Assembly: GCA_030828165.1 (NCBI GenBank)
Contig: JAURDA010000002.1
Coordinates: 1 to 64,000, forward strand
Length of the DNA: 64,000 nucleotides
From: Candidatus Poseidonia sp.
Lineage (GTDB): Archaea; Thermoplasmatota; Poseidoniia; Poseidoniales; Poseidoniaceae
Reading direction: 5' to 3'
The translations under genes and the position numbers were made by a program. Numbering within the stretch: position 1 is the stretch's first letter; each line of letters opens with the position of its first letter. The notes beneath the pieces were generated by a model that saw only the letters and a program-made list of their open reading frames with translations, did not search any database and was not told where the DNA came from. Below are positions 25,068 to 63,753 of the stretch, in pieces.

Positions 25068-28000
25068 TCAAGCATCGGAGATGCTCTTCGCCTCTTCAAA
25101 GGTCAGCATGATTTCGCCCGTCGGTCCAAAGGCGACCACCGGCACGTAGCCGTCGTGCGGGGTGACCTTGAGCGTACGGATGATCTTCTCCACCGCATCG
25201 CTCGGCAATCGGAGTGAGAACCCTTCACCGGTTGAGAGCAGGCCGCTGTGCCCGGGGGCTGGTGGTTCCAGGGCGGTGGCTTCCACCAAGTCCTCAAACC
25301 CTTCAAATTCATCTTCATCAACGGCTTCATCGGGTGTTTCTTCCAACGATTCCGTTGCCTCTCCAGGCGCCTCGTCCAAGATTTCCGAGCCTCCCTCGCC
25401 GTCCACCTCGGGAGCGTCCTCATCCTCCGTTTGGTCTTCGGTTTGCTCCGGCAAACTTGGAGGCTCGGCCACGGGTGCCATCGGTTGGATTTCTTGGTCA
25501 ACATAGATGCCATCGTCTTCGTTCATGCGTTGCATGAACAGGAAGCCGAAACCGAGGGCAATAATTCCCATCAAAACGAAGGCGATGGCGCCGAAAATGG
25601 AACTCTCGAGGGAGTTTGCGAACAAAAGCGAGGTGAAGATCGAACCGTAGCCACCCAAGCCGCGCCGCCAAACGGCGTCGTTTTCTTCGTCGAAGCCTTG
25701 CACGCCGACGATGACGAGGTACACCGTCATGAGCAAGTAGGCAATGGATTCCAAGTCAGCGGTGTTCAATGCAACGTAAACCCCAACAAGCGAATAGGTC
25801 AAACCTGCCAGACCAAGGCGGTCCATGAAGGCAAAGAAGGCGTCGTCCGAATCCCACGAAGCCCCTTCCCAATCGTACATGAGGTCGTCCTTTGCAGAAA
25901 GAAGGGTCAGCATCACGCCTTGAACGGCCAACGCCAAACCAGCCACGGTGGTTTGTTGGTCGTCGGTGCCAAGGTCGCTCTGGACCATGATGTTGATGAT
26001 GCTGAAGGTTGAGAGAAGCGGGAAGAGCAGCACGCCTCCGAGTTTTCCGTTTCGAAGCATGGACCACGAGAGGATGGCCAAGCCCAACAACGGACCCAGA
26101 CCGTAAAACACGCTGTATCCTGCAACAAAACCCAAGCCGCCGATTTGGACGGCAAGTTGAGCAACATCGTTTTGCTTCCGTTGTTCTTCTTCATCCTCAG
26201 GTGCTTGCTTGAAGAGCATGCCTTTCGCATGAAGCGCTGCCATGACGCAGCCGCCCGCGCCGGTGAGCACACCGCTCCAGCCCGCCGCATCCCCCTCGCT
26301 GATGGGTTGGAAGGTGTCGCTGCCGGAGAATCCAATAAACAACGAAACAAAGAGCAGTCCAAGCGTGAAGGGAAGGCCATCGCTTCGGTTGCTGGCGTAC
26401 AGGTACGGCATCAGCAGGAGCGTGACAAGCGTTGGAATCCAATACCCGTCCGGAAGGACGGAAAGAAGGGCCAACGTGAACCAAAGGATGGCTCCCATCA
26501 CCCAAAGTCCGCTTCCTTCTTCGGATCCGTCCGTCTTGTACATGCTGTAGAGTTGGGAGGTCATGTGAACCATGATGAGAAGCCCCTCAAAGGCAGGGTA
26601 CGGTCCGTTGTGGTTGTTCACCAGGTAGTTGCCCACCGATGCTGGAAGGGCTTCGATGGCCTTTGCAACCAATCCTGCAGAATCGCTGCCGATATCCGCT
26701 ATCAAGACCGCAAGCGGAACCAACAAGGTCAGCACGTGGTAACGATGGAGAACGGTGCGCCAGGCCACCAATACCGCCAAGGGCAAGAACAGAAGTCCGC
26801 CTGAAGTGTCAAGCAAGGCCAAACCCAGCAACATCAGGTACATCGCTCCATCAGCCTCACGGTTGAGCGATGTTTCGTCGATGCCTCGGCGCACGATGAC
26901 ACCGTTCACCACAAAGGGCGCGGCCACCAAGATGGCATCCAACAAAAGGCCTGCTTGGAGGACATCGTTTCCAACCGCCCCTGCGTCGTTCAACTTCCAG
27001 GAGAGCGGAACGGCGAGGAAGATGAGGAGGGCAACACCAACGGCTCTGTCGATGGAGCCGATGGTGTCCATCTGAACGATGTCCCGCACCAGCATGGCGA
27101 CCGGTAGGACGAGCAACAGCACGATGTACGGGTCGCTTGCCCACACATCACCCCGTATCGTGCTGATGGAGAGGGTGAACAGCATTAACCAGCCACCGAC
27201 GGACAATCGGGCCAGAGGACCCCATGCAGCCTCGGCGATTGCTTCCTCCGTGCTGGTTTCCTTGGCGTCCGGGACAATCCATGTTCCGCTTTCAGCGTCG
27301 TAAGTGGGTGCCGCGGCATTTCCCTGGTCCAACCACTTGAGAACCGAACCGAAATCAAGTTCAACGGAGCGCGCCTTCGCTGAAACCGCATAGAGGGCGA
27401 TACTCAACAACAAAAATTGCGGTCGGGAGCCCAGCGCTGTAAGGTCCTCAAGCACCGCAACGTCCGGAATCGTCAAGTTGTCGAGGACGGCGAGCAAAAG
27501 AACGGTTAGGGTGGTGAAGATCATCGAGAGCGTGACGTCCTTTCGGTGTTGGAGCGTCACCGGTGTGGCCGTGCGAAGCATGCGCCAGTTGATCGAGAAC
27601 ATGTACGCGACAAGCAACCAGGGAAGGTACCATTCTGGGTCAAGAATGGCCCTCGAGAGGATAACCGAACCGATCATCGCCAGCGAGATGCTGGTTTGAA
27701 GCCGTTGGCGAGAGCGTCCGAGTTCAGCGACGCTGAGGAGGAACACCGGGATGAGCACATGCAGCCACGTACCTCCAAACGCCTCCTTGGCAGGAATGTC
27801 TTGGGTGTATGCATACCAATCCGTGAGGAGGTAGGAAACGCTGAAAGCCAGCATCGTCAAGTTCACGACCCATGTTCTGGCGACTTTTGAGATGAAGACC
27901 ATGTAGGGGAGAATGAGCATGCTGAGCACCCACGGCACGGTTGAGGACGCCATCGGGAGGACGAGCAGTGCCACGGCTAAACCGATGGGCATCCACGGCA

Positions 28001-29138
28001 CTCGCTGTTTCAGGACTGCGGGGAAATATGCGAGCAGAACGGTGCACCACAAGGCTACGGGGACGTTGATGTAATCGGCGATGGCGGGATAATCACCGGC
28101 TCGGAACGGACCGAGGATGAGGTTAAACTCGTTCGTCGAGATTCGGACCAGGAAGAGGGCGAACACGACTTGGCCGATAAGGAACAACGACGCTCGCTCC
28201 ATGACCTCTTTTCGCAGGTCCTCTCTTGCGGCAAAATACCCTTGAATAGCGATGATGAACACCATCAGCGAGAGTGCACCGCCCGTGCCGTCGACCGGTG
28301 CGTTGGTGTTCAGCCCTTCGTAAACGAGAGGAACCAAACCTGCAACGAAGGCAACGACCACAAAATTGAGGGCTTTGTTCGAACGCAGCGACATTTCCAA
28401 CGAAACCAAGGTAATGCTCAGCATGGCGATGCCGAGTTCCCAACTCACGACGTCGTTGGACCATCGGATCCACGGACCCACGCCGGCGAGGAGAATCGCC
28501 ATGGGCGCATAGGTTGCAACGCCCCATCCGAAGCTGGTTTGTCCGTTGTAGCGTTGGAGCAGTCGGTAGTGCCCGTAGGTGAGGAGCAAACACGTTGCGG
28601 TTTGGGCGTAGATGGCGTTCGCATTCGGCGACCAATCCGTATCGGTGTAGGCTGAAGGGTCGCCAAACACGTCCAACTCAAATGTTCCCGTCGCAACGGC
28701 GACAAGGTAACGAGTGCCCCACAACACGCCCACGGTGGAGAAGAAAAAGGCGATGCCGAGGATGTAGTTCTGGATGTCTTGGAGGTGGTAATCGTTCTTT
28801 TTGCTTTGAAGTTCAATCAGGGCGATCGAAACGGCGAAAGAGGCCAATCCGCCGACAAAGAGCACGAGGAAATTCTCGTTCGTCGCTTCCTCGTCGAACG
28901 CCACGCTGAAAATTCCACCCCAAATGGCGAGGAAACCGATGCCCATCATCACGAGTTGAGACACTTTGAGCATGAACATGTCCTGTTCTCGAACCGAAGA
29001 CCCCGGTGCGTGAACGGTCATCGGTGGTGCGCTGGTTTGACCCTCTGCCCTGAGGCCGCCTTGCATCGGAGATGCGCTTGAGGCTGCGGTGGTTGCTGGT
29101 TGTGAGGCTTGGATTTTTTGACGACGCGGTGCGGCCAT
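25068..29138 (-). CDS. giant polytopic membrane protein (1356 aa), unknown
   Basis: A 1356-residue protein. Residues 1-53 are Ala/Ser/Pro-rich and soluble. Residues about 55-1210 are a nearly continuous series of hydrophobic segments, by eye more than 30. Residues 1220-1300 are acidic and Pro/Glu-rich (QTEDQTEDEDAPEVDGEG and on), and the last 55 form a small globular-looking domain (DGYVPVVAFGPTGEIMLTFEEAK). No glycosyltransferase, protease or transporter motif was recognised. The size and repetitive helix content recall DUF2339-like proteins, but this is only a resemblance. A cytosolic C-terminal domain coupled to a large membrane body is the plain reading. Confidence 0.8.
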   Translation of the reverse strand: MAAPRRQKIQASQPATTAASSASPMQGGLRAEGQTSAPPMTVHAPGSSVREQDMFMLKVSQLVMMGIGFLAIWGGIFSVAFDEEATNENFLVLFVGGLASFAVSIALIELQSKKNDYHLQDIQNYILGIAFFFSTVGVLWGTRYLVAVATGTFELDVFGDPSAYTDTDWSPNANAIYAQTATCLLLTYGHYRLLQRYNGQTSFGWGVATYAPMAILLAGVGPWIRWSNDVVSWELGIAMLSITLVSLEMSLRSNKALNFVVVAFVAGLVPLVYEGLNTNAPVDGTGGALSLMVFIIAIQGYFAAREDLRKEVMERASLFLIGQVVFALFLVRISTNEFNLILGPFRAGDYPAIADYINVPVALWCTVLLAYFPAVLKQRVPWMPIGLAVALLVLPMASSTVPWVLSMLILPYMVFISKVARTWVVNLTMLAFSVSYLLTDWYAYTQDIPAKEAFGGTWLHVLIPVFLLSVAELGRSRQRLQTSISLAMIGSVILSRAILDPEWYLPWLLVAYMFSINWRMLRTATPVTLQHRKDVTLSMIFTTLTVLLLAVLDNLTIPDVAVLEDLTALGSRPQFLLLSIALYAVSAKARSVELDFGSVLKWLDQGNAAAPTYDAESGTWIVPDAKETSTEEAIAEAAWGPLARLSVGGWLMLFTLSISTIRGDVWASDPYIVLLLVLPVAMLVRDIVQMDTIGSIDRAVGVALLIFLAVPLSWKLNDAGAVGNDVLQAGLLLDAILVAAPFVVNGVIVRRGIDETSLNREADGAMYLMLLGLALLDTSGGLLFLPLAVLVAWRTVLHRYHVLTLLVPLAVLIADIGSDSAGLVAKAIEALPASVGNYLVNNHNGPYPAFEGLLIMVHMTSQLYSMYKTDGSEEGSGLWVMGAILWFTLALLSVLPDGYWIPTLVTLLLMPYLYASNRSDGLPFTLGLLFVSLFIGFSGSDTFQPISEGDAAGWSGVLTGAGGCVMAALHAKGMLFKQAPEDEEEQRKQNDVAQLAVQIGGLGFVAGYSVFYGLGPLLGLAILSWSMLRNGKLGGVLLFPLLSTFSIINIMVQSDLGTDDQQTTVAGLALAVQGVMLTLLSAKDDLMYDWEGASWDSDDAFFAFMDRLGLAGLTYSLVGVYVALNTADLESIAYLLMTVYLVIVGVQGFDEENDAVWRRGLGGYGSIFTSLLFANSLESSIFGAIAFVLMGIIALGFGFLFMQRMNEDDGIYVDQEIQPMAPVAEPPSLPEQTEDQTEDEDAPEVDGEGGSEILDEAPGEATESLEETPDEAVDEDEFEGFEDLVEATALEPPAPGHSGLLSTGEGFSLRLPSDAVEKIIRTLKVTPHDGYVPVVAFGPTGEIMLTFEEAKSISDA

Positions 29139-57301: not shown

Positions 57302-60259
57302 TCATTCGAAGAAGTCGTCGAATTCATCGGTAGCCGCCGCCATGTTTCGCTTTCGGGCTTCCATGACGCGCTTCAGGCGCTTTCGCTTCTTGAGAATGAG
57401 TGGCAAGAGGATGAAGTTCAGCAAGATCGTGGCGAGGAGAGCAACGCCGGCAACCTGGAATTCTGCAACTTGCGTGGCGTCGTTGAGTTTCTGCAACCAT
57501 GGCATGCCGAGCGGAGGTTCAGGAGGCTCAGGTTCGGGGGGAATCACGTGTTGGTTGTAGGTCCACCAATCGTCGTCGATGTGGACCCGTTCGATGTTCG
57601 GAGAGGGGTAATCTGCGATGAGTTGCTCGTTGCCGACGCTGTCGATCGGAGCGAGGATGTAGTAGTAGGTGCGGTAAGGCCGCAAGCCGTCGTTGTCAAG
57701 ACCACGCTGGGTGTAGGTTGCCGACTCGCCGGGTACGCCCGAGAGCCCCTCCACAAGAGGCTCAATGAAGCGGAGGTTGACGTTGTCGGGTGCGTTCTCG
57801 ACGCGATACAGATTCCAACTGAGGTTGCCTTGAGCTTCATGGTCTGGCCATACCCAAGTAAGGGTGACTTCGTAGCACAGGGACCAATCCTTGCGCAAGT
57901 CAAAGCAGGTCGAACTGTTCGTGAAGACCCAGTCGTGGTTGAACTGCTCGACGCTGGTGCTCGGAGCGATGGCGTCACCGCAAAGCAGGCCGGCTTGCCC
58001 GTTGACTCGGGTGATGTTGATCATGTCGTAGTTCGGCAACCCCTCGCGGTCGATGGGCGCGATGGCATAGGATGCACAAATGCCGGTTTCAAGCGGCTGA
58101 GGGTCGAGCCATTCCGTTGCATCGATGGCGAGGGTGGTGGCCAGCGTGTCGGCGGTCAATTCCTCCCAAACGTTCTCAGACACGCCCGTGACGGGGTCGG
58201 GGAACACCGTGGTCCCTTCGATGCCCGAGATTCGGTAGATGTTCCAACCGCCGACGTATGGATTGGTCGTGTCGCCTTGAGCCTCCCAACCGAGGTGGAT
58301 CTGTCCACCTTCGCGCTGCGTCCACGCAAAGTCAACCGCATGCACATCGGTGGGTGGCAAATTGCCGATGAGGAGAATCACGCCGTCTTTGGTCAGCGAA
58401 AGGGAAATACGGTCGCCGGTCGGGTTGAATGCATAGGTATCTTCACCCTCGATTAGGCTCCAGAGTTGGGTGTCGGTGGAGGGAAGGTAGCGAACATCAA
58501 CGGTGGACAAGTCAATGCTTTCGGGCAAGAGTGCGCTGAGGTTGAGATCAAGCTCGATGCTTCGAAGCCCGTTGTCGGCCCCGTTGACGCCCTCGACGTT
58601 GAGGTCGAGCAACATCAGCGGGGATTTTCCTTGGCCGATGCTGTAGGACACGCCGAGTTCAGGCAACAAAATGCTGTGTTCAAACGTGGCTTCGGCTTCG
58701 GTGGTGGCTCGACCGGTGAAGAAGGGTTCGTTGGAAATGTCCAAGGCGTTGAGAACATCGAACTCCACATAGGCGTATTCGGTGTTCCCCCACGGGTCTT
58801 GAACTTGGAGGGATATGTTGTGGTAGCCCAAACCAAAGTCCTCGCCGGTTTGGTTCAACACCTGTCCGTATCCCCAGACATAGAATCCTTCGCGCCAGGT
58901 GTAGTTGAGGGGCTGTGAAGCCACTTCGCTAAATCGACCAACCAACTCGACATCGTCATCGCTCAGGTACACCTTGCTTTGGGAGTTGACCTGAATGTTG
59001 GGGTTGATGGGTCCGATTTCCACATCGGCGGTCACCAAGTACAGGTTGTCGCCCATGCGGATGTCCTCGCCAACCGAAAAGATGGTTGGAAGTTGGGCGC
59101 GTAGCAAGCGGGCGTTCCCTGTTGTGGTGAGGTTGAGCGAGCACGACACCGATTGCCCGGGATGCATGGTAGGGAGGTCGCAGCTGTCTGCAACTTCCAG
59201 TTCATACTGTTCATCGTAGACCTCAAAGTTCAGCGTTGCTCCACTCACGGTGGTGTTGCCGTTGTTTGAAACTTCAGCAACCACGCGCTCAGTACCGAAA
59301 TAAAACACGCTTGCTTGCTGGTCATGGCTTGGATACACGTCGTCAATCTTGAGGTCAATGCTGTCGTTGAGCACGATTTCAAACTCGGTCAAGTCGTTGA
59401 AGGCATTCAAATCTCCAGTGGGGTTGCCCGTGCTGTTGAAGAGGCCGTACTTCAGCAAGAAGCGTCCTTCATCGGGGTGGCTGAACGCAGGAAGATCGAG
59501 GTTGAACGGGCTGAAGCCACCCCATGCAGATGGCCCCGACCACGTTACGATTCGGTAGTTTTGGCTCAACAGAAGGGTTTCGTCAAGGGTCCACAACTGC
59601 CAGCCAAACTCTGCATCGAGGACACAACCCGAACAAACACTCGCTTGGCCTTTGCTCTTGAGCACGTAGTCGGTGTTTGAGTTGAGGACCTGTTCGTCGT
59701 CGTAGACGGAGAGGTTGGGGAGATGGTCAAGCGGGTTGTGATTGGTTTGGACGATGGCTTCGATAAAAGCGTTGGTGATGTTGATGTGGAAAAGATATGC
59801 ATCGTCGGAAGGGTCTTGGTCGACGTTTGAAAAGGTGTAGAGCACGGTGAACAGCCCGTTGGCACTCCCGCCAGGGCTCCACGTGTTGGCCGAGGTGATG
59901 GTCTCGGTCGCCCCCGCGGCGATGCTCGGCATGGTGAAGGTCCCGGTAGCAGCGTGGACGGATTTGCAAGAGGGGATGTCGACATCGCCTTCGCAAGCGT
60001 ACCATGTCAGCGTTCGTGATGCCCCTGAGGCGGTTGCGCGATGGTTGGTGACATCGGCGCTGAAGGTGAGCAGATCCGTGTTCTGGTAATAGGCGTCACC
60101 AAGAGGTGAGGCGCTGTCCATGATGCCGAGGTTTCCGCTCACGGCGGCGCTCGCTGTTGGTGCGACAGCGAGGCTGGCCATCGTCGAAAGCACCAGCAGG
60201 GTGACCAGTCCGACCCCCTTGTGTTGACGCCAACCGTTGCGTTGCTTTCGCTCGCTCAT
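57302..60259 (-). CDS. large exported, membrane-anchored beta-domain surface protein
   Basis: A 985-residue protein. Signal peptide about 1-37 (LVTLLVLSTMASLAVAPTASA). The body is repeated beta-sandwich-like modules: CARDB-like (FGTERVVAEVSNNGNTTVSG, and similar), then two fibronectin type III-like modules (VGGWNIYRISG, LSWNLYRVENAPDNVN). The C-terminal end has a Pro-rich spacer, a membrane segment (AGVALLATILLNFILLPLILK) and a basic, acidic-tipped cytosolic tail. Cysteine pairs are few. Presumably part of the cell surface or an adhesin. ATG 60259 with an upstream GAGGGAACC is chosen; an upstream start at 60286 would lengthen the n-region. Confidence 0.82.
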   Translation of the reverse strand: MSERKQRNGWRQHKGVGLVTLLVLSTMASLAVAPTASAAVSGNLGIMDSASPLGDAYYQNTDLLTFSADVTNHRATASGASRTLTWYACEGDVDIPSCKSVHAATGTFTMPSIAAGATETITSANTWSPGGSANGLFTVLYTFSNVDQDPSDDAYLFHINITNAFIEAIVQTNHNPLDHLPNLSVYDDEQVLNSNTDYVLKSKGQASVCSGCVLDAEFGWQLWTLDETLLLSQNYRIVTWSGPSAWGGFSPFNLDLPAFSHPDEGRFLLKYGLFNSTGNPTGDLNAFNDLTEFEIVLNDSIDLKIDDVYPSHDQQASVFYFGTERVVAEVSNNGNTTVSGATLNFEVYDEQYELEVADSCDLPTMHPGQSVSCSLNLTTTGNARLLRAQLPTIFSVGEDIRMGDNLYLVTADVEIGPINPNIQVNSQSKVYLSDDDVELVGRFSEVASQPLNYTWREGFYVWGYGQVLNQTGEDFGLGYHNISLQVQDPWGNTEYAYVEFDVLNALDISNEPFFTGRATTEAEATFEHSILLPELGVSYSIGQGKSPLMLLDLNVEGVNGADNGLRSIELDLNLSALLPESIDLSTVDVRYLPSTDTQLWSLIEGEDTYAFNPTGDRISLSLTKDGVILLIGNLPPTDVHAVDFAWTQREGGQIHLGWEAQGDTTNPYVGGWNIYRISGIEGTTVFPDPVTGVSENVWEELTADTLATTLAIDATEWLDPQPLETGICASYAIAPIDREGLPNYDMINITRVNGQAGLLCGDAIAPSTSVEQFNHDWVFTNSSTCFDLRKDWSLCYEVTLTWVWPDHEAQGNLSWNLYRVENAPDNVNLRFIEPLVEGLSGVPGESATYTQRGLDNDGLRPYRTYYYILAPIDSVGNEQLIADYPSPNIERVHIDDDWWTYNQHVIPPEPEPPEPPLGMPWLQKLNDATQVAEFQVAGVALLATILLNFILLPLILKKRKRLKRVMEARKRNMAAATDEFDDFFE

Positions 60260-60414
60260 CAAGGTTCCCTCGCATCCGTGCTTCAAAGACTCATCGCTTT
60301 TGCTTGTCCCCGAGGGCTCTTTTTTTGCGCGCTCAGCGTCATCGGTTTTGGGATTGCCCGCAGTACCCGATGAACATGCGGTAACCTCATCAATTGCGAA
60401 CCAATGGTTAGGGC

Positions 60415-61500
60415 ATGCGTAGCCCAGCGTTCGTTTCCGACGAGCGGCGTGAGGGTGGCCTAACGGCGGTCATTGAGTTTCTGTCCGCCTTTACGTTGTT
60501 TTTGATGATCCTCACGGCGTTTATCTCCCTGGCGCAACTGCAAATGGGTTCCAACGACCCCGAAGTCGACCGCTTGGACCGTGCAGCGGCCCAAGGCTTG
60601 GACAGGCTCACTTCCGGCGAGGGGTGGTTCGTCCCGATGGGCGCTGACCTCGACTATGCCAACGCGACGGATGCATGGCATACTTTTGACGCCGAGGCGC
60701 TTCAACAGGGGCGCGTCCAAGCCGGGTTGGTGTCCTCGTACCGATTGGACATGGATCGCATCGCCGCCCTCCACAACGTGACCGAGGACGGCATGGCCGC
60801 CGGGCTTGGTTTGGCCGACGACATGAGCCTTCATCTCTCGGTCAAGGTGGTGGAAAGCACGAACGAAAGCCGAGAAGGGACCTTCCTTTTCTCGGGCGGA
60901 ACGGAGCGGGGCACCGCCCCTTCGTCCTCCACCGCATACCGTTCCTTCCAGCAGGACGGGGAGTTGATTCGGGTGGTGCTTGAGGTTCACGACGGGGGGC
61001 GCAAATTCAACCAGCTCCACATCACCGAAGTGATGACCCGCCCCTCCTCGAACGGTCCGGAATGGATCGAGGTCCACAATCCCAACGATTTTGCGGTCGC
61101 CCTCAAGGGTTGGTCCTTTAACCACACCTCCGGCTCATCGGGAAGCAACGTTTTACTCCAAGAAGGGGTGCTGTCAGGGGGTTCATTGTCTCTTTTCACC
61201 GGTGATGTCTCAACCCAAGAGCGACGCAACGCCACCCACGTCATCGACCTCGGCTCGGCGGGCTTCCTCGGCGTTGGCCAACTCAGTGGACTCGCTGACG
61301 GTCAGGGTGTTTTGCGCCTGCGTTACACCCAACTCGACGAAATCACCCCCGCAGACATGGTAAGAGTGGAATGGGGCGGTAACACCGGTTTGTTCATGGT
61401 CAGAGGGCAATCCTTGGTGTGGGACGGCGTCGACACATTTGACGCTGCTTCGTGGAGTCTTGAGGATGCACCGACCCCCGGCGAATCCTCCATGGCCTGA
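60415..61500 (+). CDS. prepilin-like protein carrying a lamin-tail (LTD) domain
   Basis: A 361-residue protein. The N-terminus is type IV prepilin-like: a short basic leader ending RREGG, then the hydrophobic helix LTAVIEFLSAFTLFLMILTA (about 16-35), with a Glu near the helix start. Residues about 45-200 have no recognised family. Residues about 200-340 read as a lamin-tail domain: LHITEVMTRPSSNGPEWIEV, then NPNDFAVALKGWSFNHTSG. Prepilin leaders are cut by PibD-type peptidases and the helix packs into a filament. It is directly upstream of three KaiC-like genes. This combination is not one I know. Confidence 0.65.
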   Translation: MRSPAFVSDERREGGLTAVIEFLSAFTLFLMILTAFISLAQLQMGSNDPEVDRLDRAAAQGLDRLTSGEGWFVPMGADLDYANATDAWHTFDAEALQQGRVQAGLVSSYRLDMDRIAALHNVTEDGMAAGLGLADDMSLHLSVKVVESTNESREGTFLFSGGTERGTAPSSSTAYRSFQQDGELIRVVLEVHDGGRKFNQLHITEVMTRPSSNGPEWIEVHNPNDFAVALKGWSFNHTSGSSGSNVLLQEGVLSGGSLSLFTGDVSTQERRNATHVIDLGSAGFLGVGQLSGLADGQGVLRLRYTQLDEITPADMVRVEWGGNTGLFMVRGQSLVWDGVDTFDAASWSLEDAPTPGESSMA

Positions 61501-61568
61501 GCCGCGATTTTCAGCAGCGGCGGTGCAAACACTTCATCAACCTGCGGTGCCTCCTCGTGTTTGGTCCC

Positions 61569-62351
61569 ATGCAACCCAGCAGCGTTTACACACGAGACCG
61601 ATGCGTGACGGGCATCCACGGCTTGGATGAGATTCTTCGAGGGGGCATTCCCTACGGCTCAACGGTGCTCGCAGCAGGAACCTGCGGCTCCGGAAAGACC
61701 ACGTTGGGCATGGAATTTCTCGTCAGAGGAGCCCTTGCTGGCGAGGCCTGTGCCCACTTCACCGCCACCGAACCCTCGGTGAAGCTATTGGAGAACATCC
61801 GCCAATATGCCTTCTTCGACATGAACATGGTTGACTCCGGCCTCATCAACGTCTTCGACATGGACGTGCTGTATTCGTGGCTTGGGCTGGACAAAGCCTC
61901 CTTTGAACTGGACGACGTTCACGCCCTCATCAAGTCCATCGTCGACATCGTCAACACCATCGGCGTGACCCGCCTTGTGATCGACTCGGTCACCACACTT
62001 TGTTACAAGATCAAATCCGAACAACTGATTCGAGATTTCCTCTTCACCCTCGGGAAGAAATTGGCGACCCTAGGCTGCACCACCATCCTCATCTCCGAAA
62101 TCACCTCGGCCACCGAGAATGCGCACTGGTCCTCGTTCGGCGTGGAAGAAGCCATCGCTGACGGCATCATCGTGATGGGCGATTCGGAACGGATGGGCCA
62201 CCTGTTGAGGTTCTTGCAGGTTGTCAAGATGCGGGGTACCTCTCACAGCCGTGCGAAGCATGCCATCGAACTGACGCCGTTGGGCGTGATGTTGATTCCG
62301 ATGCTGAAATGGGGTGCATCCGCCGATAAAACATCCAGATGGGGGCAATGA
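61569..62351 (+). CDS. single-domain KaiC/RecA-family ATPase (intact P-loop)
   Basis: A 260-residue protein of the KaiC family. It opens with VTGIHGLDEILRGGIPYG and has Walker A GTCGSGKTT (residues 37-45). Walker B is LVIDSV near residue 145. Further family blocks are SFGVEEAIADGIIVM and VKMRGTSHSRAKHAIELTPLG at the C-terminus. The KaiC double Glu after the first strand is replaced by TEPSV. It likely binds and hydrolyses ATP to switch a partner. ATG 61569 is chosen over GTG 61557. The second KaiC-like gene overlaps it (ATGA). Confidence 0.88.
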   Translation: MQPSSVYTRDRCVTGIHGLDEILRGGIPYGSTVLAAGTCGSGKTTLGMEFLVRGALAGEACAHFTATEPSVKLLENIRQYAFFDMNMVDSGLINVFDMDVLYSWLGLDKASFELDDVHALIKSIVDIVNTIGVTRLVIDSVTTLCYKIKSEQLIRDFLFTLGKKLATLGCTTILISEITSATENAHWSSFGVEEAIADGIIVMGDSERMGHLLRFLQVVKMRGTSHSRAKHAIELTPLGVMLIPMLKWGASADKTSRWGQ

Positions 62352-62938
62352 CGATGTTTGAACTCGACCAACGGATTGCTGAGCAACTCACCCAGGTGTC
62401 CCTCAACAGCTCGGTGCAGGTTCGTATGAGCGCAGCCAACACCTTTGCCGTGACGGCGAGCACGATGGTCCCCCTCATGCAGATGTTTGAGATGGGCGGC
62501 GTGTACATCTCTGCGAGCCGCGGAGCAGCCGAAATCATCCAGGCCTTCGAAGCCATCGGCATCGACGTGTCCAACATTCATTTCCTCGACCTCGTCTCCT
62601 CGGGTGTGCTTGGCGGAACCGATGTTCCGTATCCAAACATCACCTTCGTCGACAGTCCCATCATGCTTGAGAGCATCCTCCTTCGAACGCTCTACACCTT
62701 GCGAACGGTGAACAACCAGCGAAACTTCGTCTTCCTCGACAGCGTGAATGCGCTGGCCATTTACAACGACGATCGCATGTTGGCCGAGTACCTTCACACC
62801 TTCATCAACACCTTCCGCCAACGGGAGGTCCTTTCGGTGATTCTGAACGTACCGGACCAAACGCCCCCGCTGGTGTTGGCCAACCTCGACACGTACTGCA
62901 CCGACCTCATCGATCGCGGTCAGGTGGTCCTTCTCTGA
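62348..62938 (+). CDS. KaiC-like protein lacking the P-loop (partner 2)
   Basis: A 196-residue protein. The centre is RecA-fold-like (GGVYISASRGAAEIIQAFEA, ITFVDSPIMLESILLRTLY, NFVFLDSVNALAIYNDDRML) but no Walker A is present where the nucleotide would bind. ATG 62348 overlaps the first gene's TGA. The Walker B-like strand FVFLDSVNAL is retained. It is probably a pseudo-ATPase or scaffold acting with the upstream ATPase. Resembles archaeal KaiC-like and DUF835-like proteins, but I cannot name a family. Confidence 0.72.
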   Translation: MTMFELDQRIAEQLTQVSLNSSVQVRMSAANTFAVTASTMVPLMQMFEMGGVYISASRGAAEIIQAFEAIGIDVSNIHFLDLVSSGVLGGTDVPYPNITFVDSPIMLESILLRTLYTLRTVNNQRNFVFLDSVNALAIYNDDRMLAEYLHTFINTFRQREVLSVILNVPDQTPPLVLANLDTYCTDLIDRGQVVLL

Positions 62939-62949
62939 GGTGATGATGC

Positions 62950-63753
62950 ATGGCACGGAAAATGACGTTTGATGCAGAGGACGAGGAATTCTTTGGCACC
63001 GTTGGCTCCTTCGGTGTGCCCAAATTTGACGCTGAAATGCGCGGCGGTGTGCCTCGTGGTTTCACGATGATCGCCTTTACCGAAACGGGGTCGGGCAGCG
63101 AGTTGTTTGCAAAACAGTTCACCTCTCCAGCCGAAGAGCCCGAAAACACGCTCTACATCACCACCGACGAGGGTCAACAGGAAATTGTCAGAATCTTCCA
63201 AAAATATGGATGGCCCCTCGACATCAACGTCCGTACCATTGGAGAGGAATATAACGCCAACGTGTTGGAACGTGAACTGTTGGCCAGTCGTTACCGGCTT
63301 GAGGGCTTCCAACTTGCCGACATCCAACGCTTGGCTCAAACCCGTTTCGTTGACGACAGCAACCAGGATTACTTGACGGAAGTCACCAACGAAATCATGG
63401 GACTAGGTCCGTATTTCCGAGCCGTTTTGGACAATTTGGACTTTTTCCTGCAGCGTGACGACCCCGCCCGTGTGATCTCAATGGTGCGAATGCTCCAAGC
63501 CCACGCCCAAATGGTCCGGGGTTTGCTCATGATTTCGGTCTCTACCGACGGGTTGGACCCGTCCATCAAACAGGAACTTTCCTCAATCGCCGACATGGTT
63601 CTCTCATTCAAGGTCCGAACCATCGGTACCGAATTCGAGAATTCGATGATCGTTTCAAAATTCCGAAACGCTCCAGAGAACCTGAAGATCTTGGTCTTCC
63701 GCGTGACCCCCGAAGAAGGCATCACGCCAGAAACCGTGGAACGTATCGCTTGA
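62950..63753 (+). CDS. KaiC-like protein with degenerate P-loop (partner 3)
   Basis: A 267-residue protein. It starts like KaiC domains (FGVPKFDAEMRGGVPRGFTM) but the P-loop reads TETGSGSELFAKQF, without the conserved Lys and Ser/Thr. Later strands (FRAVLDNLDFFLQRDD, LLMISVSTDGLDPSIKQEL) keep the RecA outline. It could bind nucleotide weakly or not at all. Starting 11 bp after partner 2, it completes a three-gene array on one strand. Its C-terminal half is helix-rich. Confidence 0.78.
   Translation: MARKMTFDAEDEEFFGTVGSFGVPKFDAEMRGGVPRGFTMIAFTETGSGSELFAKQFTSPAEEPENTLYITTDEGQQEIVRIFQKYGWPLDINVRTIGEEYNANVLERELLASRYRLEGFQLADIQRLAQTRFVDDSNQDYLTEVTNEIMGLGPYFRAVLDNLDFFLQRDDPARVISMVRMLQAHAQMVRGLLMISVSTDGLDPSIKQELSSIADMVLSFKVRTIGTEFENSMIVSKFRNAPENLKILVFRVTPEEGITPETVERIA

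Follow-up and report, generated by a model that had tools for sequence, protein, structure and literature searches.

We analysed a block of four genes, g1 to g4, that pairs a prepilin-like protein with three proteins of the KaiC family in Candidatus Poseidonia sp. The window, i.e. the whole stretch of DNA that was analysed, covers 64 kb at the start of contig C40, which comes from a 1.79 Mb genome that is 84% complete. The genome is a member of the Poseidoniaceae (family f1). This family and family f2 (presumably the Thalassarchaeaceae) both belong to the Poseidoniales (Marine Group II, MGII). The four genes lie head to tail in the order g1-g2-g3-g4, all on the plus strand:

60415..61500, plus strand: g1, prepilin-like N-terminus followed by a lamin tail domain, 361 amino acids (Pfam match, AlphaFold2 model and fold match)
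61569..62351, plus strand: g2, active KaiC-family ATPase (Pfam match; start set by ortholog alignment)
62348..62938, plus strand: g3, short protein of the KaiC fold with neither P-loop nor finger (KaiC match below threshold, fold match and distant orthologs)
62950..63753, plus strand: g4, KaiC-fold protein with a dead P-loop (Pfam match and alignment of orthologs)

The ATG at 62348 is the best start of g3 and overlaps the stop codon of g2 by 4 bases, as ATGA, while g4 follows g3 after a gap of 11 bp. The position and strand of the four genes, the overlap and the gap were thus just as an earlier sequence-only reading of this DNA had described them. NCBIfam named none of the four above its cut-offs.

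We observed that g2 is a single-domain KaiC protein, matching PF06745 with 177.7 bits (cut-off 26.6) at an E-value of 3e-52. An alternative GTG start at 61557 would make it 4 codons longer than the start at 61569. The P-loop of g2 is complete (GTCGSGKTT), so that g2, unlike g3 and g4, has a full Walker A motif. Two motifs were located in this protein:

61677..61700, plus strand: intact P-loop GTCGSGKT of g2 (read from the sequence; GK[T]T invariant in alignment A3)
62226..62234, plus strand: K-M-R trans finger of g2 (invariant in alignment A3; aligns with the KaiC finger)

Among solved structures, KaiC was the closest to g2 (E 9e-45), and this resemblance is what speaks for the trio being a clock or timer of the KaiC type. 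However, g2 has one domain and not the two of the clock protein, it scored 96.8 bits against a cut-off of 546 for TIGR02655, and no KaiA or KaiB gene was seen in the flanks that were read. We consider such a timer very improbable, and a recent KaiC clock was ruled out by the domain number and the score.

The sequence-only reading had taken g3 and g4 to be KaiC relatives without a working P-loop. g3 begins past the P-loop region and stops short of the finger. It scored 20.9 bits with PF06745 in the window, below the cut-off of 26.6, and a sequence search against the PDB returned nothing useful, the likeness to KaiC coming from the fold comparison only. An AlphaFold2 model of g3, built from 14 sequences with a predicted local distance difference test (pLDDT) score of 71.8, had KaiC structures as its first matches (E 3.8e-6, template modelling score ~0.57). 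Two distant orthologs of g3, at loci L258 and L260, scored above the same cut-off with 33.1 and 32.0 bits. In the case of g4, PF06745 matched directly with 58.7 bits (cut-off 26.6). The fold match and distant orthologs for g3, and the Pfam score for g4, indicated that both proteins belong to the KaiC fold and not to unrelated folds, which bears out the earlier assignment. They are members of the KaiC family by descent and fold only, without a working Walker A motif. One distant g4 also scored above the Elp4 cut-off of Pfam (33.2 versus 28 bits); the Elp4 and Elp5 matches of some orthologs reflect the shared fold only.

We further looked at the motifs that g4 has lost and kept:

63088..63102, plus strand: P-loop remnant GSGSE of g4, with S50-E51 replacing K-T (sequence and ortholog alignments)
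63658..63666, plus strand: K-F-R finger of g4 (KFRN), with R239 invariant and K237 nearly invariant among aligned orthologs

In the window, g4 reads ETGSGSELF where GxGKT is expected. Both the lysine and the threonine were replaced in all 16 aligned Poseidoniales orthologs, the threonine position always being glutamate or aspartate. Distant orthologs of g4 keep glutamate or aspartate at this position as well, and the sequences of the Marine Group III (MGIII) type retain the lysine (GSGKELL). The finger was present as [KR]-x-[RK]-N in 12/12 distant g4 proteins. In KaiC rings, the K-x-R finger reaches the ATP of the neighbouring subunit.

To see how widely the four genes stay together, we used a fixed sample of 116 genomes of the Poseidoniales, 58 from each family. 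We found g1, g2, g3 and g4 in 68, 69, 69 and 68 of these genomes, respectively, always side by side in this order where the contig was long enough to show it. The block was present in nearly all the Poseidoniaceae genomes and in 12 of the 58 f2 genomes, the same 12 for each gene; these 12 belong to genera g14, g16, g18 and g21. Within these sets, the gaps matched what is expected of genomes that are 78-97% complete. The four genes stood together in 94 of the 98 Poseidoniales loci read, so the arrangement is not due to chance. The ATGA end was seen in 38/96 Poseidoniales g2 genes, and most g3-g4 gaps were 8-13 bp. That the four genes form a unit conserved in related genomes was therefore borne out by this collinearity, and the pattern of presence suggests that they were gained or lost together across the Poseidoniales.

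Outside the Poseidoniales the trio g2-g3-g4 was also found. A profile of g3 matched 201 of 390 Thermoplasmatota genomes, of which 83 were Poseidoniales and 7 belonged to the other lineage in the class, presumably MGIII; the remaining 111 were from other families. We read 20 neighbourhoods of the KaiC set outside the Poseidoniales. Of these, 13 loci belonging to 10 families showed the order g2-g3-g4 (two of the 13 with one inserted gene); five had only g2-g3, and two were cut by contig ends. A gene for a MetOD1/ATC-hydrolase-like signalling domain separates g3 from g4 in families f13 and f20 (L254 3751-4875; L256 6785-7900). The MetOD1 signalling domain has been described (PMC5847659).

In a tree of 84 KaiC-fold proteins, g2, g3 and g4 formed separate clades with support of 66, 100 and 98, and each clade spanned MGII, the MGIII-type lineage and other Thermoplasmatota. 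The trio is thus made of three old orthologous groups and is not a recent local array. The absence of a working P-loop in g3 and g4 could also be read as the decay of duplicates of g2. However, the two are old and strongly conserved clades (mean column identity 80% for g3 and 72% for g4) that have been kept across the phylum, and the chance that they are decaying copies is negligible. The tree and the conservation also ruled out that one KaiC gene had been duplicated locally or had decayed.

The distant loci also allowed a comparison of the g2 finger. It keeps its arginine (KMRG or KVRG) in 13/13 distant loci with g4 (L254, L256, L258, L260-L262, L265 and L267-L272). It reads KMK or KMA in 3/5 distant loci without g4 (L259, L266 and L273), numbers that are too small for a test. 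Loss of the finger arginine where g4 is absent is a possible sign of functional coupling between g2 and g4.

We then turned to g1, whose features within the protein are as follows:

60457..60534, plus strand: putative class III signal-peptide site G15/L16 and hydrophobic helix, residues ~16-40 (ortholog comparison)
61009..61212, plus strand: lamin tail domain, matched stretch, residues 199-266 (PF00932 and fold match)

The C-terminal lamin tail domain scored 36.6 bits with PF00932, above the cut-off of 34.3. The AlphaFold2 model of g1 (pLDDT 84.5) contained an N-terminal helix at residues 10-44, and its top Foldseek matches were human lamin tail domains (E 5e-4). At the putative cleavage site, all 93 of the 93 orthologs have glycine (49) or alanine (44) at -1 and leucine, methionine, valine or isoleucine at +1, the pattern expected of class III signal peptides. 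A prepilin site had been proposed for this gene, and the small residue kept before the hydrophobic helix is consistent with it. A glutamate is conserved at +6; in bacterial pilins the corresponding glutamate is at +5. Named pilin families (e.g. PF07790) were absent among the Pfam matches of g1. A gene of the same type (lamin tail domain 44.3 bits, prepilin-like start) was also found upstream of the KaiC set in family f20.

One rival reading concerns the archaellum, in which the KaiC-family protein ArlH (FlaH) acts. The trio would then be an accessory of the archaellum, as an additional ArlH system. The weak match of g4 to ArlH, as well as the resemblance of g1 to filament subunits, fits this. 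However, the genome has its own ArlH, in a separate archaellum operon on contig C39, and neither g2 (34.9 bits) nor g4 (49.6 bits) reached the cut-off of 215 bits for NF052589 (ArlH). Among those 116 genomes, ArlH was found in f1 and in f2 genera g13, g14, g18 and g20, a distribution that differs from that of the block. Eight f2 genomes had ArlH and no block, while genera g16 and g21 had the block and no ArlH. Archaella have been reported from all Poseidoniaceae and from half of the Thalassarchaeaceae genera, with no identifiable chemotaxis genes (PMC6461757). The link to the archaellum that the sequence-only reading had brought up did not survive this comparison, and we regard an accessory role there as highly improbable.

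Type IV pili gave a different result. Contigs C84 and C51 of the window genome each carry a further pilus-type ATPase together with two T2SSF platform genes. In f2, both ATPases have orthologs in each of the 12 genomes (of 58) that carry the block and in 0 of the 46 others. Besides this, a Pilin_N gene (PF07790) directly follows g4 in f1 genus g9 and in f2 genera g16 and g18. In the window genome the corresponding pilin gene is on C51, ~5 kb from the Tad-type ATPase, a placement that would fit a single inversion of ~75 kb in most Poseidoniaceae. A rearrangement of ~75 kb seems to swap the neighbours of the block (C40) and of the Tad-type pilus genes (C51, L062) in most Poseidoniaceae, in comparison to f1 genus g9 and f2 (L072, L074 and L077).

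An archaeal prepilin peptidase (PF06847) also abuts the block, upstream of g1 in genus g16 and downstream of g4 in genus g14, and in these two genera only. Since the peptidase is found in two different positions, a merely inherited neighbourhood is less likely. The scores of these peptidases fell on both sides of the cut-off; in the one at L078 both aspartate motifs are readable (LDHKTRRVSN and GGADAK). Pilin_N genes, each scoring over the curated cut-off, also adjoin the KaiC set at eight loci outside the Poseidoniales, which represent seven families. With type IV pilin and prepilin-peptidase genes as neighbours, the suggested link to a surface filament is real, and the association of the block with type IV pili is well supported.

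We also examined G242, a one-contig genome of which 1.6 of 1.82 Mb (88%) was read. The only clear Pilin_N match here follows g3, and two pilus ATPases and two platform genes are clustered ~40 kb away. No g4 ortholog was seen in the part that was read. Some Thermoplasmatales are without secretion ATPases, according to PMC4858521. A KaiC set beside pilins in a genome without a pilus motor was checked for in G242 alone and was not borne out there. The C84 pilus locus of the window genome (L063 6954-12016) has one ATPase and two T2SSF genes, followed by a gene of 211 amino acids with no Pfam match. The product of this gene starts like a prepilin: MERSEGGQMLLATGVVLL.

On this evidence we favour, with moderate confidence, the view that an ancient Thermoplasmatota module regulates a type IV pilus and that the block is the form it takes in the Poseidoniales. 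Several points weigh against it. The match between the block and the pilus ATPases in MGII may amount to as little as one shared loss, because no reliable species tree was obtained. Outside MGII, the pilin neighbours may all go back to a single clade that inherited its gene order. At least 13 loci outside the Poseidoniales had no pilin in the stretch read, the block itself contains no motor ATPase or platform gene, and g4 is missing from the five distant loci that have g2-g3. Finally, most type IV pili work without an ArlH-like protein (PMC12024892).

For the counting of losses, trees of the A-type ATPase subunits and of gyrase were tried and rejected, since families were mixed or the backbones weakly supported. 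The A-type ATPase trees (A and B subunits, L086-L114) nested f1 genus g9 among f2 and placed the f2 genome G003 near f1, which suggests that this operon may have been transferred within the Poseidoniales.

A broader role has to be weighed as well. The trio could be a general KaiC signalling hub that uses ATP or ligands to sense the state of the cell and then acts on transcription or on several targets, the pilus genes being only some of its outputs or unrelated neighbours. Archaeal KaiC proteins have been proposed as hubs (cited in PMC5847659), and the MetOD1-domain gene between g3 and g4 in f13 and f20 would suit such a role. Several trio loci are also without a pilin neighbour, with none at the MGIII-type loci and those of family f24. 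Against this, pilin and prepilin-peptidase genes are adjacent repeatedly and in different positions, and the prepilin-like g1 is within the block itself. We judge a general hub to be rather unlikely.

If the block does regulate the pilus, the following mechanism can be proposed. g2 would bind ATP and would probably hydrolyse it or autophosphorylate. The pseudo-ATPases g3 and g4 would join g2 in an assembly, most probably a single heteromeric ring. g4 would have been retained for its fold and its K-x-R finger, which it would lend in trans to the ATP site of g2, and g3, having neither P-loop nor finger, would serve as a cap or docking subunit. The assembly may sit on the motor ATPase or the platform of the pilus, the candidates in this genome being the T2SSE/T2SSF sets on C84 and C51. 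It would gate the assembly of the pilus in the way that ArlH acts on ArlI in the archaellum, and g1 would be a minor or regulatory pilin-like protein that displays its lamin tail domain outside. We infer the formation of the complex, the ring, the trans finger, the docking to the motor as target and the direction of control. The most specific form of this proposal is a phylum-wide heteromeric KaiC ring, with one ATPase and two dedicated pseudo-ATPases (a finger donor and a cap), that controls type IV pilus assembly, resembling Elp456 in architecture and ArlH in task. We put this forward tentatively, as a possibility that we lean somewhat against.

ArlH autophosphorylates, and its binding to the motor ATPase ArlI depends on nucleotide (PMC12024892). 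The trio resembles it in being a KaiC-fold system tied to a type IV filament. However, it has three genes instead of one, scores far under the ArlH cut-off, has another distribution and coexists with the cell's own ArlH. KaiC-family ATPases next to archaeal pilus genes, with a predicted regulatory role, were reported in the main text of Makarova 2016 (PMC4858521), and the present KaiC genes beside pilus genes are of this kind. Neither a conserved trio with two inactive members nor a lamin-tail prepilin is described in that main text. Inactivated KaiC domains (iKaiC) are known from archaeal signalling, where they are fused to REC or HalOD1 in haloarchaea (PMC5847659). g3 and g4 share with them a KaiC fold without ATPase motifs, but differ in being two stand-alone pseudo-ATPases tied to one active gene. 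Elp456 is a hexameric ring of three RecA-like paralogs in which the P-loop consensus is absent (PMC11050213). It is similar in having three different RecA-fold paralogs, whereas the trio has one active member and only a proposed ring, and Elongator acts on tRNA. The CdiP system of Cuniculiplasma (PMC12448462) has a split platform protein like that of the C84 set and of G242, and the G242 pilus cluster resembles it also in having two ATPases; in contrast to our loci, that paper reports no KaiC trio.

Regulators of archaeal pili of the KaiC type have thus been predicted before (PMC4858521), and inactivated KaiC domains were already known (PMC5847659). We found no description of this trio in the literature searched, a scope that did not take in the main archaeal KaiC paper (mBio 2017, e01959-17). 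If our reading is true, ArlH-like KaiC control would not be peculiar to the archaellum and would have an old counterpart on type IV pili. The subunits of a pilus-regulating KaiC would have become specialised into active and inactive forms, and rings such as Elp456 could be compared with a prokaryotic case. It would also provide a concrete, testable gene set for the open question of archaeal pilus regulation, in one of the most abundant groups of surface-ocean archaea.

Downstream of the block there is a methyltransferase gene and then an A-type ATPase operon. An open frame of 1356 amino acids elsewhere in the window (25071-29138, minus strand) had no Pfam match at E 1e-5. The gene upstream of g1 is divergent, and its membership of the module is uncertain:

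57302..60286, minus strand: divergent neighbour, secreted CARDB-like protein, 994 amino acids

A divergent secreted protein of ~1000 amino acids (compare L074 2643-6191) adjoins g1 in most, though not all, loci of both families. In genus g16, a prepilin peptidase and a beta-propeller/TSP3 protein take its place beside g1.

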